Below, one piece after another: positions 6,682-26,368 of a DNA stretch of 32,344 nucleotides. Source of the DNA: an uncultured marine group III euryarchaeote (GTDB lineage Archaea; Thermoplasmatota; Poseidoniia; MGIII; CG-Epi1); the NCBI GenBank assembly GCA_902533295.1, contig CACALG010000007.1, positions 1-32,344 of the forward strand. Direction: 5' to 3'. A model generated the notes under the pieces. It saw nothing but the letters and a program-made list of their open reading frames with translations. It did not search any database and was not told where the DNA came from. The position numbers and the translations under genes are program-made. How positions within the stretch are numbered: position 1 is the first letter of the stretch; each line of letters starts with the position of its first letter.

Positions 6682-9600
6682 ATGCACAGCAAAGCATTAG
6701 CTTCAGGAATCGTGATGTTTTTACTTTTGAGCACCAGCTTTGCTAATTTATCTGCTGAAGAAGAAATCCCGATTTATGAGACTAACTGGTGGGATAATTA
6801 TTCTAGAGATAAGAACCATGATGGTATTTCTGACGTATTAATTTGGAAGTTGGCTCAAGGCGACAGATTTTTTAGTCCTGGAGAAGCAAGGGTCTTCGTA
6901 AGGTATGATCATCATCCAACCGATTATGATGTCGAACTGTTAGAAAATGCAGGAGTTGAAGTCACCTATCGTGCCAAGTACATTGATTTGCTTGCGACTA
7001 CCATGCCAAGGGATTTGATTCTTGATATTGCTACATGGGACGGAGTTGTAATGCTAGATGATATCGGGAAAGCTGAACCTCACATGGCTACTGCTGTGCC
7101 CACTATGGGAGTCGATAATGTCTGGAATAATCATGGCATTTATGGTGAAGGTGTTTCTATTGCTATTGTCGATACTGGCGTCAATAATGCACATGTTGGT
7201 CTTGATGATTTTGATGACAACCAATTTACGAATGATTTGAAAGTTGCTGCTTACTATGATGCTGGCCAAGATGCAATCATTTGCTCTGAAAACGGTCTTG
7301 CAGGTACACTTCCTTGTTACCCTGGCCAGTCTATCGATAGTGGAACCCACGGAACTCATGTGGCTGGAATAGCTGCAGGTACTGGAGATGGTGAAACTGC
7401 AGCTGATGGAACTCCGCATATCGGTGTTGCTCCAAAGGCTCATTTGGTAAATGTACTTTCATGCTGTGACGGTGATATTGAAGACATTATTAGAGGAATT
7501 GAATGGACTATTGAATATCAAAACTTAGTCCAACCAAATATTCGTGTGCTGACTTCAAGTCTTGGAGAACAGCAAATTGAATTTCATATAGATAATGATG
7601 GTTATTCAGCTTGGAGCCAAATGGCTGACGCTGCTGTTGAATCTGGTCTTGTAGTCACGTTAAGTGCTGGAAATGAATTTGGTTCAGCTACTGTCGCTGG
7701 CTGTAATACCATTGATTCGCCCGGTGATTCCAGATTACCAATAACTGTTGCTTCTCTTGATCAAGATCTCAGTCTGGCAATTTACAGTTCTAGAGGTTAT
7801 ACTTCTGACGGAAGAGTCAAACCCGATGTTGCAGCCATAGGTAGCTCAATTTGGGCTCCTGATGCTGCAAATAATGTAGGATATACTGCCAAGAGCGGAA
7901 CTAGTATGGCCACTCCATTAATGGCAGGAATTGTAGCTCTTACTTTAGAAGCAAATCCTGATTTGACTCCTGCAGAAGTCAAAGAAACTTTAGTTGCAGG
8001 ATATGCCATTGAAAGAGAAGTTTTGAATGATGATCCTGATGCTGCGTCTAACAATTGTTCACTTTTAGAAACTAGGCCAGATAATGAGTATGGATACGGG
8101 CAAGCCGATCCATTAACATTTGTTGAAGTTGCTGGTAAGATAGATCCTGAAGTATCAGTAAACTGGAGCTTGGATTACGAAATGGAAGAAATTAATGGGA
8201 CTATGGTTCCAGTTAAACCAAGATTATACAATAATGATGTGCTGGAAGGAACTGCCGTTACTCTAAACAAGCCGACGAACGGAGGAGGTGTCCAAATTAA
8301 GTTTGGAGCCAGTCAATGGTACAATGCTACAGATACCTCTTCACAAAAGAATTGGAAAACATGGAAAATTTCAATGCCTGAGGACTTAGAACTTGAGGAT
8401 AATCAAACTTTGACCTTGTATGCTAGATTGGTGTTAGAAGGTGGAGAATCAATGTCTGTCATCAATAGTTTTTCAGTTGTTTATATGGATGATAATCGTC
8501 CTGCTAGTCTACTTATTGAAGGATTAACTGATTTAGGAGGAATGATTTTCCTACCTGTTATTTTGTTAGCTGCTGTTGCAATGGGTTATATTTTTACACA
8601 ACCTAGGAGATCCAAAAGTAATTTAGAAGTTGAAGAATCTGGAGGAGATGAATTTGTCTGGGATGATGATGTTGCAAATGAGGGTCAGAATAATCTCATG
8701 ACGACTATGTTTGGAAAGATGAGTGCTAAAGCGCTCACATTGTGTGCTCTCTACACAGCACAGGGTATCCCTTCTGGATTTATCTCTTACACATTAATCG
8801 CTTATCTTGCAGAACAAGGATTTAGTGCTGCTGCAATAGGAAATATGTTATTCTGGGTATACTTGCCTTGGGTTTTCAAATTTCTGTGGGGTCCTTTCGT
8901 TGATACATATCATTACTTGCCAATGGGGAGGCGTCGGCCTTGGATTCTTAGTGCACAGGCTGGTATGGTAGCTACTGTTCTGATTATTGCACTTGTGCCT
9001 GATATTGATACGAAGGTTGGATTGTTAACGTTTTTGTTATTCTTCCATAACTGTTTCGCATCTTTGCAAGATGTTGCTGTAGATGGATTGGCTGTTGATA
9101 TTTTGAGTCCTGAAGAATTTGGAAAGATTAATGGGTTCATGTTTGGAGCAAAGCGTTTCGGTACAATGATTGGTGGTGCAGGTATTGGATACTTTATGGG
9201 GAAATATGCATCAATTGGAATTACTGAAGGGCTCCTCTTGACTGTGCCAATGTTGTTATTGATTATGTGTTTACCTGCATTCATCAGAGAAAGGCCGGGT
9301 GAAAAATTATTCCCTTGGACGGAGGGTGAAGCGGTCATAAAACCTAATTCTGTAGAAGAAGGTAGTTCCACTGTAAAAGAAGGTAACTCAGAGGAAAGGA
9401 TTTTAGCAAGTATTGTGAAAGACAAGAAAACTAAAGCTGAGACGATAATGCCGGAAAAGAACAGTTTTGATATGGGAGAACATAATTCTCAATCGCTAAC
9501 TGTTGACATTGGTTTATTAATTGCTTTAGATTTATTCTTGTTATTAACAATTGGTGATTTTGCAGGAAAAATATGGTGTCATTTAATCGCTTTAGGTTCC

Positions 9601-10281
9601 GGTATTGCTTATTTTGTATTACTACGAAACAATACATTTGGTCAACAAGCTTTTGATTTAGCGCCCCAAAAGAGTGATATTGTCAAGGCGCTCTCGCTTA
9701 GAGCTCCTTTGATTGGTATCATCCTTGCTATGCTAACATACTTCTGGGAATTCTTGATTCCTGTATTGAACGTATTATTCATACAAGAATTAGGATGGAC
9801 TGATACTGAGTATGTTGCCGTGACTGGAGGCTGGGCTGTAACTGCAGGTATAGCTGGGACGATAGGTGGAGGAATTATTGCCGATAAATTTGGTGCTAGA
9901 CGTGTAGCTAGTTTGTTTGCTATTCTAACCGGATTATCAATTTTCACTATAGCTTTGGCTGAACCTTTATGGGAAAATAGAACTGTTATGTGGTGGTTAA
10001 TCGTTGCCTATCCTTTCTTTGGTGCTGCGATGGGGATTTCATTAATTTCATTATTCATGAATGTTACATGGCCAAAAGTAGGAGCTACGCAATTCACTCT
10101 CTACATGGCTATGTTGAATTTTGGTGCATTGTTTGGCCTTAAGATGGCTGGATACTTCGAGGAAAACTTCACTTATACTACTACAATCATGATTGGTGGA
10201 ACTTGTCAGCTCTTGATTGCCTTCGTTCTACCATTTATTGATCCAGGTCAAACCAGAAGGGAATTGGGTAACGAATTTTAG
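6682..10281 (+). CDS. Fusion protein: secreted/anchored S8 (subtilisin-like) peptidase plus AmpG/PAT-like MFS transporter
   Basis: Signal peptide, then Asp SIAIVDTGVN, His GTHGTHVAGIAAG, Ser SGTSMATPLMAG; TM helix GGMIFLPVILLAAVAMGYIF; then LCALYTAQGIPSGFISYTLIAYLAEQGFSAAAIGNMLFWVYLPWVFKFLWGPFVDTYHYLPMGRRRPWIL and about 12 TM segments. No stop codon intervenes. Confidence 0.88.
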   Translation: MHSKALASGIVMFLLLSTSFANLSAEEEIPIYETNWWDNYSRDKNHDGISDVLIWKLAQGDRFFSPGEARVFVRYDHHPTDYDVELLENAGVEVTYRAKYIDLLATTMPRDLILDIATWDGVVMLDDIGKAEPHMATAVPTMGVDNVWNNHGIYGEGVSIAIVDTGVNNAHVGLDDFDDNQFTNDLKVAAYYDAGQDAIICSENGLAGTLPCYPGQSIDSGTHGTHVAGIAAGTGDGETAADGTPHIGVAPKAHLVNVLSCCDGDIEDIIRGIEWTIEYQNLVQPNIRVLTSSLGEQQIEFHIDNDGYSAWSQMADAAVESGLVVTLSAGNEFGSATVAGCNTIDSPGDSRLPITVASLDQDLSLAIYSSRGYTSDGRVKPDVAAIGSSIWAPDAANNVGYTAKSGTSMATPLMAGIVALTLEANPDLTPAEVKETLVAGYAIEREVLNDDPDAASNNCSLLETRPDNEYGYGQADPLTFVEVAGKIDPEVSVNWSLDYEMEEINGTMVPVKPRLYNNDVLEGTAVTLNKPTNGGGVQIKFGASQWYNATDTSSQKNWKTWKISMPEDLELEDNQTLTLYARLVLEGGESMSVINSFSVVYMDDNRPASLLIEGLTDLGGMIFLPVILLAAVAMGYIFTQPRRSKSNLEVEESGGDEFVWDDDVANEGQNNLMTTMFGKMSAKALTLCALYTAQGIPSGFISYTLIAYLAEQGFSAAAIGNMLFWVYLPWVFKFLWGPFVDTYHYLPMGRRRPWILSAQAGMVATVLIIALVPDIDTKVGLLTFLLFFHNCFASLQDVAVDGLAVDILSPEEFGKINGFMFGAKRFGTMIGGAGIGYFMGKYASIGITEGLLLTVPMLLLIMCLPAFIRERPGEKLFPWTEGEAVIKPNSVEEGSSTVKEGNSEERILASIVKDKKTKAETIMPEKNSFDMGEHNSQSLTVDIGLLIALDLFLLLTIGDFAGKIWCHLIALGSGIAYFVLLRNNTFGQQAFDLAPQKSDIVKALSLRAPLIGIILAMLTYFWEFLIPVLNVLFIQELGWTDTEYVAVTGGWAVTAGIAGTIGGGIIADKFGARRVASLFAILTGLSIFTIALAEPLWENRTVMWWLIVAYPFFGAAMGISLISLFMNVTWPKVGATQFTLYMAMLNFGALFGLKMAGYFEENFTYTTTIMIGGTCQLLIAFVLPFIDPGQTRRELGNEF
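9379..9440 (+). repeat. Copy A of a 62-nt near-identical segment (60/62 with copy B), encoding EGNSEERILASIVKDKKTKAE
   Basis: Direct comparison with 26300..26361: same reading frame, two substitutions. Confidence 0.95.
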
Positions 10282-13872: not shown

Positions 13873-14079
13873 GTGAAATGGCAAGTTACGGTCGATAATG
13901 ATATGCAAACTATAGATTTACCGGATGGGAGTACTGCGTCTGATCTTGTAACATATTTGGATTTGCATCCAGATAGTTTGTTAGTTGTAACAGATGAGGA
14001 AAAAATGGTGCCTATACCTTTGGTCTCAAAGCTCCCTGAAAAGCCAATAAGAATCATTTTAGTTGCTTCTGGTGGATAA
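13873..14079 (+). CDS. Small ubiquitin-like/sulfur-carrier protein (ThiS/MoaD/SAMP-like)
   Basis: GTG start; 68 aa beta-grasp-like sequence, DLPDGSTASDLVTYLDLHPDSLLVVTDEEKMVPIPLVSKLPEKPIRIILVASGG, ending in Gly-Gly. Confidence 0.75.
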   Translation: MKWQVTVDNDMQTIDLPDGSTASDLVTYLDLHPDSLLVVTDEEKMVPIPLVSKLPEKPIRIILVASGG

Positions 14080-14131: not shown

Positions 14132-17100
14132 ATGCCTAAGAAAAAAGCTGAAAAGAAAACCGCATTGAAGAAGGAAAAGGCGCAAGCTAAAACCAAAACT
14201 GCTTCTAAGAAAAAGTCTTCAAAGGAAGCAAAAGGTCGATTAATTGTATCTCAAGAAGAAAAAGATGAAATTGATGCAGTGATTGATGCTTTCTGGCTAT
14301 TCGTTGATCTTGTTAAAAAAGCACCTAGACACCTTATGATTATTGGATTAATTACTACACTAATCGGCGCTAGTTTTTCAGGATGGGCACAAGAATTAGT
14401 TGGACAAGAAAAAGCTGGATACTGGTATGCTTTTACTGAAAGCGATGAGGAATTGAATCGGGATTTGAACGGAATGTATCCTAATTACTCGCCTGGTGAT
14501 TCTATTAAAATTGAAGGTGTTATTTCTGAAATTGAATATTACGGTGCTCTAGATGATTGTAGTGGTGTGTCTTTATCTGAACCTGAATTATGTGAAAAAT
14601 ATCCAGTTGTTCATGAAGATTTAGGAATTATTGAAACCGATTATTATACGACGTTGCAATTACAAACTACAGACTATCTTTTTCCTTCTAATATTGGTAG
14701 TGAATTTAATGAAAGTGAACTAGATATTAATTTCGCAAGTGATGAAAAATATAGGCCTGAAGCTCTAGACGGAGAAGATACCGGTCTAGGTATTTACTTT
14801 GAAAATGAAGTGGTGTCTGCTGCTGTTTTTACCAATGTAGTGTTTGAAAATATTCTTTTTTACAATGTAGATTTTACAGATACGTTCTTTGTTGATTGTG
14901 AATTCAACCAAGTATCATTTTACAATGTGAATTTTACAAAATCTGTTTTTTCAAATAGTTCATTTGACGTGGTTTTATTCAAAAATGTGACTGTCGAATC
15001 GAGCCGTTTTGAGAATGGGGATATAGAACGTTTTTTAGTTAGAGAATCGAATTTCAATAACACTAATTTTGATAAAACCGATATTCGTGCATCGAAATGG
15101 TCTTACTCTTCATTAGAAAATGGAGTTTTTCAGAGAAGTTCTATAGATATTGTAATCTTCCGCTCATTGCATGTTAATGATTTTATTATGGTTTTATCAA
15201 CCATAGAAAATAACATTGACGCCCCTGATACTGCAAACTTTGATTTCACAATGATTGAAATTGGTGAAACTGAAATTAGAGTTCCTGGAGATGTTGTGGG
15301 CCAATATCCGATAGGTGCTCAACTTCACTTTGGTGAAATTTTCTGTGTTAAATGTGATGAAGCTGAAATAAAACTAGGAGGGATTGGTGCTGGTGATGCA
15401 GGTACTGAAGGCGGTTGGCTTGAAGGTGATGTGAAAGGTGAGGGGTTCAGAATTTCTAAAAATAGTAATTTTTCTCTAAATTTAAATCATGAATACATCG
15501 CTATTGACAACGAATACATCAAAACTACTATCTGGTGGAACCTCCTATTCAATTCAATTGCGTTTTTAGGTTTTGGTATTCTTGTTTTTGCAATTGGTGG
15601 AAAATCTACAATCATGGGACTCTTCAAATTCTTTTCTCCTTTCCTAATGACTGCGGGATTTTTTTCAGTAATGTTCCTCGCCATGTCACAAAAAGATTTT
15701 TTGAATTTAAGTCGATTAATGGTTGTTTATTTCGTTCCTCCATTTGGTAAAGGAACTGTGATACCTGGAGGTATTGCTTTGGGCCTAAATCCTTGGGCTC
15801 TTGCGGTTGCTACTGCATTTGTTGACATTGCTGTTGGTGTTTTCTTGACTTGGAATTTTGATTTAGCAAAGAAAATTCCATTTATCGGTAGCGGAATTAC
15901 AAGAATTCAAAAGAAAGGAGAATCTATGTTGAAATCCCTTCCTTGGTTAGAAAGGGCTTCGGTTACTGGTATTATTGTATTTGTTATGTTTCCTTTCCAA
16001 GGTTCGGGAGCTGTTGGAGGAACTATTCTAGGAAGGGCCATTGGTCTTTCTCCAAATAAGAATCTAACTGCTGTTTCAATAGGTGCAGTTAGTGGTTCAT
16101 TCTTACTATCTGCGTCCGTCGTGTATGGATTAGGTGTTTTAGCTGTCTTAGCACCTATACAAGTCGCGGTAGCAGTTCTATTCACTGGATTGTTGATAGC
16201 TATCTACTTCACGTATCGACACTGGGATGAAATCTCAATGGATGAAGTAACCCAAACTTTAGGTTTACATAAAGAAGGAATTATTGGGGCACCGTTGACT
16301 GCTGCTGGAGGAATGGTGGGAAGTGCAGGAGAGACTGTATTGAAAGTCGCAGGAGATACTGGAAAAACTGTTGCTACTGCAGCTGACAATACTGGAAAAA
16401 TGATAACTAAAACAACCGGCAACCTTGTAGGTGGATTTTTGGGATCTTTCACTGATGATAAATATGATTTTGCAGATCCGAACAATCCTATTGAACTTGA
16501 ATCGGGAGTTTTAGTTTCAATGCCTAAAAATGGGGCAAAAAATAGTGTTGTAGTTACTGGAGGTGCGGGTTTCATTGGTTCGCACTTGGTTGATAGGTTG
16601 GTTAAAAGAGATGAGCATGTAGTAGTCCTCGACAATTTTTCTTCTGGGGAATTAGAATTCTTATATGACTCAGTTGAAAAAATAACTGTAATTGATATTG
16701 ACTTACTGAAAGATGATTTTGAAAAATATTTGAAAGGTGCAAAGATTGTCTATCATTTGGCCGCTAATCCTGAGGTCCAATTAGGAATTACAAAACCTGA
16801 AGTTATGCAGGAACAAAATGTAGATGTTACAGAAAGAGTATTAGAAGCTATGAAAAAAGGCGGGTGTGATAGAATTGTATTCACTTCAACTTCTGTTGTT
16901 TATGGAGATGCTAAGAAAATTCCTACTCCTGAAAATGCTAAATTAGAGCCTATCTCTGCTTATGGCTCTAGTAAATTAGATGCTGAAAAATTGATTGAGA
17001 AATATTGTAAAGAACATAACTTTAGAGGAGTGTCTTACAGATTTGCAAACTGTGTCGGGCCAAGAAGTAATCACGGTGTAACATATGATTTTGTAAATAA

Positions 17101-17485
17101 ATTGAAGGATAATCCAAAAGAATTAGAAATCCTAGGAGACGGGAAACAACACAAATCCTATTTCCATGTTGATGATTGTATCTCTGCAATGCTAGCTAAA
17201 GCTCCTGGTGAATTGTGTGATAAAGGAGAATTTGTAGCACTTAATGTAGGCTCAAAAGATGCTATTGATGTTGTAACTTTAGCTAATGAAGTTTGTAAAG
17301 CTTTGAAATTGAAAGATGTTGACTACAAATTCACTGGTGGAGTTGATGGTGGAAGAGGGTGGAAAGGCGATGTGAAGAAAATGAGATTGGACATCAAGAA
17401 ATTGAAATCTCATGGTTGGGATCCACAGTATACAAGTAGGAAAGCTATTAACGAAACTGCGAAATGGCTTGACGAAAATTATTAA
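14132..17485 (+). CDS. Fusion protein: Lys-rich N-terminus, TM, pentapeptide-like beta-helix, Sm_multidrug_ex-like membrane domain, NAD-dependent sugar epimerase
   Basis: Repeats FTNVVFENILFYNVDFTDTFFVDCEFNQVSFYNVNFTKSVFSNSSF; membrane region GTVIPGGIALGLNPWALAVATAFVDIAVGVFLTWNFDLAKKIP..FQGSGAVGGTILGRAIGL; then SVVVTGGAGFIGSHLVDRLV..., STSVVYGD, YGSSKLDAEK, YRFANCVGPRS. Confidence 0.85.
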   Translation: MPKKKAEKKTALKKEKAQAKTKTASKKKSSKEAKGRLIVSQEEKDEIDAVIDAFWLFVDLVKKAPRHLMIIGLITTLIGASFSGWAQELVGQEKAGYWYAFTESDEELNRDLNGMYPNYSPGDSIKIEGVISEIEYYGALDDCSGVSLSEPELCEKYPVVHEDLGIIETDYYTTLQLQTTDYLFPSNIGSEFNESELDINFASDEKYRPEALDGEDTGLGIYFENEVVSAAVFTNVVFENILFYNVDFTDTFFVDCEFNQVSFYNVNFTKSVFSNSSFDVVLFKNVTVESSRFENGDIERFLVRESNFNNTNFDKTDIRASKWSYSSLENGVFQRSSIDIVIFRSLHVNDFIMVLSTIENNIDAPDTANFDFTMIEIGETEIRVPGDVVGQYPIGAQLHFGEIFCVKCDEAEIKLGGIGAGDAGTEGGWLEGDVKGEGFRISKNSNFSLNLNHEYIAIDNEYIKTTIWWNLLFNSIAFLGFGILVFAIGGKSTIMGLFKFFSPFLMTAGFFSVMFLAMSQKDFLNLSRLMVVYFVPPFGKGTVIPGGIALGLNPWALAVATAFVDIAVGVFLTWNFDLAKKIPFIGSGITRIQKKGESMLKSLPWLERASVTGIIVFVMFPFQGSGAVGGTILGRAIGLSPNKNLTAVSIGAVSGSFLLSASVVYGLGVLAVLAPIQVAVAVLFTGLLIAIYFTYRHWDEISMDEVTQTLGLHKEGIIGAPLTAAGGMVGSAGETVLKVAGDTGKTVATAADNTGKMITKTTGNLVGGFLGSFTDDKYDFADPNNPIELESGVLVSMPKNGAKNSVVVTGGAGFIGSHLVDRLVKRDEHVVVLDNFSSGELEFLYDSVEKITVIDIDLLKDDFEKYLKGAKIVYHLAANPEVQLGITKPEVMQEQNVDVTERVLEAMKKGGCDRIVFTSTSVVYGDAKKIPTPENAKLEPISAYGSSKLDAEKLIEKYCKEHNFRGVSYRFANCVGPRSNHGVTYDFVNKLKDNPKELEILGDGKQHKSYFHVDDCISAMLAKAPGELCDKGEFVALNVGSKDAIDVVTLANEVCKALKLKDVDYKFTGGVDGGRGWKGDVKKMRLDIKKLKSHGWDPQYTSRKAINETAKWLDENY

Positions 17486-25315: not shown

Positions 25316-26368
25316 ATGAGATTGGCCATTCTAACTCTCGTGCCTGTTATTTTTGCATTGTTTTTAGTTGGATCTGTAATTGCTGAGGAAAACAATACTG
25401 CTGATGTTACAGAAGATGAAAGTAATGTGATTATTGATGTTGTTTTACCTGTCGCATTGGCATTCATTATGTTCTCTCTAGGTATTGGGTTAACTATTGA
25501 TGATTTCACTGTGATAGTCAAGGAACCGAAAGCTTTCGCAATTGGTCTTACTAATCAAATGATTGTATTGCCGATTATCGCTTTTGCTATTGCTTCGGGT
25601 TTGGGACTATCTGACCATTTAGCAGTTGGCCTAATGATACTGGCCTGCTGTCCTGGTGGAGTTACGTCGAATATTCTGACGAAATTAGCAAAGGGCGATA
25701 CTGCTCTCTCTGTATCTTACACTGCCATAGTTAGCGTAGCCACTGTGATTACTCTACCTCTTATTGTTGGTTTCTCAATGAATCATTTTATGGGGACATC
25801 TGCACCAGAGATTGATATTTTGAGACTTGGAATGGAGGTGTTCTTACTGACTACAGTTCCTGTTGGGCTTGGTATGACCATTCGACATTACTTTTCAGAA
25901 ACAGCCGATAGGATGGACAAAGTCGTCAGTATGGTTGCTGCTGGTTTATTTGTGATAATTGTACTTGCTGCAATTGCGACCGAATGGGATACTTTGATGA
26001 ATAATATCGGAAAACTAGGCCCTGCTGTGATGCTTCTATGCGTTGTGATGCTTGGTATTGGATACAAGAGTGCAGAATTTCTAGAATTGAATTCCAAAAG
26101 AGCGACTACTGTTTCGATTGAAAGTGGGATACAGAATGCTGTTGTGGGCATAGCAGTAGGTGACTTGATTCTAGCTGATCCTGCAGGGGGTTTCTCTACT
26201 CTGAGTTTGCCTTCTGGAGTTTATGGAGTTCTGATGTATATTGTAATATCTCCATTCATCTATTGGCGAATTACTAAATCTGAAGAAGAAGAGGAAGAAG
26301 AAGGCAACTCAGAGGAAAGGATTTTAGCAAGTATTATGAAAGACAAGAAAACTAAAGCTGAAGACTAG
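25316..26368 (+). CDS. BASS (bile acid:sodium symporter-like) family transporter
   Basis: FIMFSLGIGLTIDDFTVIVKEPKAFAIGLTNQMIVLPIIAFAIA..LMILACCPGGVTSNILTKLAKGDTALSVSYTAI. Internal ATG gives a signal-anchor-like N-terminus. Confidence 0.9.
   Translation: MRLAILTLVPVIFALFLVGSVIAEENNTADVTEDESNVIIDVVLPVALAFIMFSLGIGLTIDDFTVIVKEPKAFAIGLTNQMIVLPIIAFAIASGLGLSDHLAVGLMILACCPGGVTSNILTKLAKGDTALSVSYTAIVSVATVITLPLIVGFSMNHFMGTSAPEIDILRLGMEVFLLTTVPVGLGMTIRHYFSETADRMDKVVSMVAAGLFVIIVLAAIATEWDTLMNNIGKLGPAVMLLCVVMLGIGYKSAEFLELNSKRATTVSIESGIQNAVVGIAVGDLILADPAGGFSTLSLPSGVYGVLMYIVISPFIYWRITKSEEEEEEEGNSEERILASIMKDKKTKAED
26300..26361 (+). repeat. Copy B of the 62-nt near-identical segment, at the 3' end of the BASS gene, encoding EGNSEERILASIMKDKKTKAE
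   Basis: 60/62 identical to 9379..9440. Confidence 0.95.

Follow-up and report, generated by a model that had tools for sequence, protein, structure and literature searches.

A single ORF in a 32,344-nt stretch of DNA from an uncultured Marine Group III euryarchaeote (the window; GC content ~36%) joins a transmembrane (TM) helix, a pentapeptide-repeat beta-helix, a PF06695 (Sm_multidrug_ex) membrane domain and a complete GalE-type sugar epimerase. The fusion rests on an old partnership between PF06695 and galE genes. On balance, we favour the view that two formerly overlapping genes became one membrane protein, in which a tethered GalE sits beside a DedA-like PF06695 part and probably takes part in envelope glycan supply. 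Every domain comes from a known family; the three-part architecture and the conserved gene pair appear to be new. An earlier description of the PF06695-galE fusion or pair was not found in the literature covered, which included few subscription papers, so a prior account may exist.

Domain layout of the fused protein

The ORF occupies positions 14132-17485 on the forward strand, where the end coordinate includes the stop codon, and encodes 1117 amino acids from an ATG start with no internal stop. At 36% GC, the chance probability of a stop-free run as long as these 1117 codons is ~1e-35. The features of the ORF are listed below in order.

14132..14251 (+), residues 1-40: Lys-rich N-terminus, predicted to be cytoplasmic and disordered (sequence; pLDDT ~30)
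14327..14389 (+), residues 66-86: TM helix 1 (hydropathy peak 1.72; hydropathy and charge segment 68-86; AlphaFold2 helix 66-82)
14390..15526 (+), residues 87-465: acidic ectodomain (23 K/R vs 69 D/E; seven N-x-S/T sequons)
14789..15220 (+), residues ~220-363: pentapeptide-repeat beta-helix (Pentapeptide_4; strand triplets)
15530..16219 (+), residues 467-696: polytopic membrane core (hydropathy, Pfam; AlphaFold2 pLDDT 88 for the core)
15689..15778 (+), residues 520-549: helix-break-helix 1, re-entrant-like (motif FGKGTVIP at 538-545)
15758-16093 (+): PF06695 Sm_multidrug_ex match inside the core (Pfam)
15941..16042 (+), residues 604-637: helix-break-helix 2, re-entrant-like (motif FPFQGSGAVGGTILGR at 620-635)
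16220..16540 (+), residues 697-803: flexible tether of ~107 residues (pLDDT mostly 22-40)
16493-16522 (+): conserved, genus-specific linker strip ELESGVLVSM (alignment; pN/pS)
16520..16522 (+): in-frame ATG close to the former gene boundary, no conserved start (codon comparison)
16541..17482 (+), residues 804-1117: complete GalE domain (Pfam, structure matches, motifs)

Pfam and AlphaFold2 together identified a true three-part fusion behind the TM helix, as the original prediction had claimed. The PF06695 match at residues 543-654 (E=1.4e-11) scored 45.5 bits against a curated cut-off of 30.7, and the Pentapeptide_4 match at 233-299 (E=4.5e-11) scored 43.1 bits against a cut-off of 38. The beta-helix, which had been proposed for residues 200-350, was seen in the AlphaFold2 model as repeating strand triplets at ~220-363, with pLDDT mostly 84-92 at 230-320 and lower values beyond. 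The overall confidence of the full-length model was low (pLDDT 64.5, pTM 0.38); therefore, the separate domains were used alone and no domain-domain placement is claimed.

Residues 1-66 contain 20 K/R, and TM helix 1 is predicted to place the following segment outside the cell. Judged by charge, the positive-inside rule and hydropathy, the N-terminus and the epimerase are both likely to lie inside, with the beta-helix outside. GalE enzymes use UDP-sugars and NAD, so the epimerase should face the cytosol, and the positive-inside charge agrees. The predicted topology thus supports the membrane localisation, with a nucleotide-sugar or envelope theme, that had been suggested for this protein.

The epimerase domain matched Epimerase PF01370 at residues 806-1022 (E=8e-48), with a GDP_Man_Dehyd match reaching residue 1108. 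Its GalE motifs are intact: GGAGFIG at 810-816 (GxxGxxG type), FTSTS at 917-921 and the YxxxK motif YGSSK at 944-948. As far as sequence can indicate, the domain is probably active. AlphaFold2 predicted a GalE fold at 804-1117, with a TM-score of 0.85-0.90 to the best Foldseek targets, and the closest structures were archaeal UDP-galactose/UDP-glucose 4-epimerases. The match to 3ehe (A. fulgidus GalE-1; aligned over 806-1112, E=2.4e-90) and 8rdg (P. horikoshii) was end to end, and the best archaeal structures were 42-49% identical. The sequence does not decide the specificity, because the NCBIfam galE equivalog scored 134 bits against a cut-off of 262. The solved archaeal GalE proteins are stand-alone, whereas the GalE of the window follows an integral membrane part in the same chain.

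Fused and split genes

The locus was found in 11 of the 14 genomes of the genus. It was fused in all 11 (62-93% identity) and split in none; contig ends truncate two of the fused loci, and a masked stretch lies in one. The membrane part had no match in the remaining three genomes, which are 54-88% complete. The same ORF is present in records named as Marine Group III euryarchaeotes or Poseidoniia MAGs, e.g. CG-Epi1, and the fused loci include a non-MAG isolate record, AG-343-J07. Two separate genes encode the membrane protein and the epimerase in the sister genera, represented by five g2 genomes and one g3 genome. At five of these six loci, the genes overlap by 4 nt (ATGA/GTGA) and the epimerase frame is offset by 2; in the sister-genus genome G018, the membrane gene ends with TAA just ahead of an ATG. 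In a maximum-likelihood tree built from GalE domain sequences, the fused ones formed one group (support 100/99), with the split ones beside them. Relatives of the fusion were not found in viral contigs. Since the gene is fused at every locus of the genus and split in the sister genera, the fusion is derived and has a single origin. The three-part architecture extends throughout the loci of the genus, and in the sister genera gives way to genes split near 16520.

The original prediction had also suggested stop loss at the junction. This was nearly right as history, as the sister genera are split close by; however, the ancestral genes overlapped out of frame, so that a frame change and a new linker were needed and stop loss alone was insufficient. 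GalE fusions were also considered at three other Thermoplasmatota loci (L132, L150 and L153; ORFs of 717, 634 and 490 aa) and rejected: their N-terminal parts are Arg-rich low-complexity frames of GC-rich DNA with no domains.

The pairing of the two genes extends well beyond the genus. A PF06695 gene lies directly upstream of galE, on the same strand and within 200 nt, at 31 Thermoplasmatota loci, many of them overlapping or nearly so; these loci were pooled from the membrane-part and GalE-side sets, so a few genomes may count twice. When the membrane part was used as the query, stand-alone PF06695 genes turned up in many Thermoplasmata; at 11 of these loci, a GalE of the same type came next, often overlapping. 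From the GalE side, 40 regions representing other families of the phylum were examined, and in half of them a co-oriented PF06695 gene came immediately before galE. From the PF06695 side, GalE was within the 1.5-kb flanks at 19 of 30 Thermoplasmatota loci. When the four Marine Group III loci were removed, GalE accompanied 15 of 26 loci, compared with 0 of 30 in a control archaeal phylum, that of a Methanoregulaceae genome (Fisher p=5e-7, a value that ignores shared ancestry). A GalE of the same kind was found in 74 of 100 genomes of the control phylum.

At least eight family-level groups have the tandem pair (f5, f8, f9, f11, f23, f24, f28 and f29). At two loci of family f24 (L129 and L134), the GalE core starts ~47 nt ahead of the PF06695 stop, with the frames overlapping. 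The pairing is absent from Marine Group II and from about half of the other Thermoplasmatota loci, indicating that it is not obligatory. Nevertheless, adjacency across many families suggests that PF06695 and GalE work together at the cell envelope.

The junction and alternative explanations

Purifying selection acts across the junction. All 11 genus members retain the linker strip E-L-D/E-S/T-G-V-L-V-S/A, with a pN/pS of 0.17 and synonymous divergence equal to that elsewhere. The in-frame ATG at 16520, pointed out in the original prediction, is present but is not a conserved start: the codon is ATG in 8 of 11 genus members, and GTG, TTG and TTA in one each.

Three other explanations were weighed against this background. 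An assembly or sequencing error that joined two genes is scarcely conceivable: although the records are mostly metagenome-assembled, the identical joint recurs in eleven separate assemblies across the whole range of identity, including the non-MAG isolate record. Homologs consistently split at the 16520 Met, or a sequencing error at the joint, had been named as evidence against the fusion; within the genus neither was found, all 11 loci being fused in independent records. Internal initiation near 16520, which would yield a soluble GalE besides the full-length protein, is improbable. An ATG, GTG or TTG does lie within ~12 codons of the GalE core in 11 of 11 sequences, and the split relatives carry such a start; however, one species has TTA at 16520, synonymous divergence shows no drop there, and promoter-like matches were near chance in a scan that does not cover archaeal promoters. 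The internal start that had been proposed thus finds a start codon that is not kept, synonymous sites that are unconstrained at the junction and a linker that evolves as protein.

The fusion could also be neutral, the genes having been adjacent and overlapping for unrelated reasons, the frame change being tolerated through the flexible tether, and the tethering having no function. We consider this unlikely, but it deserves serious attention. The tether is predicted to be disordered, 4-nt overlaps are common in compact genomes, and the same window holds a second conserved large fusion. A neutral event accounts less readily for a pairing that recurs in those eight or more families of the phylum and is missing from the control phylum, for the clear protein-level selection on the linker strip ELDSGVLVS, and for a gene that has been re-split in no lineage of the genus.

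Proposed role and other ORFs of the window

We therefore return to a tethered epimerase acting beside the PF06695 part as the preferred reading. Two overlapping, probably co-translated genes would have merged, one for a PF06695 (DedA-like) and beta-helix protein and the other for an archaeal UDP-galactose/UDP-glucose 4-epimerase. In the merged protein, the N-terminus would be cytoplasmic, the beta-helix would be outside, and the PF06695 core would span the membrane. The ~107-residue tether would keep the epimerase at the inner face, the site of NAD and UDP-sugars. The PF06695 part may act in handling a surface (envelope) glycan or its polyprenyl lipid carrier with GalE supplying sugar nearby, and UDP-sugar supply would thereby sit beside the membrane step that consumes it.

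PF06695 has been linked to DedA at the family level by HHpred (PMC7818093), and undecaprenyl-phosphate translocation is a candidate function of DedA proteins (PMC9876793). In the AlphaFold2 model, the secondary structure of the membrane core shows two helix-break-helix units with a TM helix after each, as described for the PF06695 family (PMC7818093); this would fit the two repeats of amphipathic helix, re-entrant loop and TM helix in the DedA/VTT superfamily. Compared with that family, the window protein adds an N-terminal TM helix, a beta-helix ectodomain and a fused epimerase. The first re-entrant-like motif is GKE(S/T), with a conserved glutamate, in stand-alone relatives but GKG in the window protein and most of the genus, suggesting that the transport chemistry may have changed; this glutamate is only a candidate counterpart of the essential E39 of YqjA. 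An hhalign comparison of the PF06695 set with shallow profiles of DedA (PF09335) proteins from related archaea gave no signal, and a Foldseek search of the membrane core against the PDB gave no match below E=0.1. Marine Group II PF06695 proteins showed a weak PF09335 match in the same stretch.

Related layouts differ in what accompanies the membrane domain. DedA-PAP2 fusions (PMC9876793) likewise combine a DedA-type membrane domain with a glycan or lipid-carrier enzyme, but the enzyme is another one and the domain is PF09335 instead of PF06695. Outside Marine Group III, the pentapeptide-PF06695 layout was found in a Thermoplasmata MAG (L064), with ectodomain and core as in the window protein (profile E=1.4e-108); unlike in the window, the epimerase is neither fused nor adjacent. 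In Marine Group II, a different protein of ~720 aa, which lacks pentapeptides, ends in PF06695, and GalE is encoded elsewhere; the PF06695 domains of Marine Groups II and III are related (hhalign probability 98%).

Among the Poseidoniia genomes (G000-G038), candidate carrier translocases have an opposite distribution. PopT (PF04018) was above the cut-off in 18 of 21 genomes of the Marine Group III family, in which PF09335 DedA was found in none (0/21), and Marine Group II had DedA in 18 of 18 genomes and PopT in 0 of 18. As Marine Group III has a PopT-type candidate, the PF06695 protein is not the sole possible carrier mover, and a role as the only carrier translocase of this group was ruled out.

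More tentatively, PF06695 and GalE of Thermoplasmatota may form a conserved two-gene unit in which PF06695 is the membrane component. It could, for instance, be a translocase that moves a galactose-bearing lipid-linked glycan or its polyprenyl-phosphate carrier and is physically linked to the supply of UDP-sugars; the Marine Group III fusion would then reveal this partnership. PF06695 is a barely studied family, and its name (small multidrug export) is a guess. A phylum-wide gene partner together with a fusion suggests for it a role in envelope sugar metabolism that can be tested, and this bears on the recycling or movement of surface-glycan lipid carriers in archaea. The locus also offers a clean case of an overlapping gene pair turning into a single membrane-tethered enzyme.

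The window contains a second oversized fusion, as had been noticed: a 1199-aa ORF at 6682-10281 combines a subtilase with an MFS/AmpG-like transporter, and ten genomes of the genus carry it over its whole length. In Marine Group II, G024 has a 1276-aa ORF matching the subtilase and MFS parts, and G025 has the parts separate. A 64-nt segment occurs at 9377-9440 and 26298-26361 (97% identical). It is in frame at both sites, one within the MFS linker and the other at the C-terminal end of an SBF-family transporter, and encodes EGNSEERILASI(V/M)KDKKTKAE. As DNA, the segment was absent from 13 other genomes searched (eight of them of the genus), and it is missing from the MFS linker in two close relatives; it is either a recent in-frame duplication or an assembly chimera. 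Just 5' of the PF06695-GalE fusion, at 13873-14079, lies a 68-aa ORF with a GTG start, whose product is SAMP2-like (ubiquitin-like) and scored under the Pfam cut-off.
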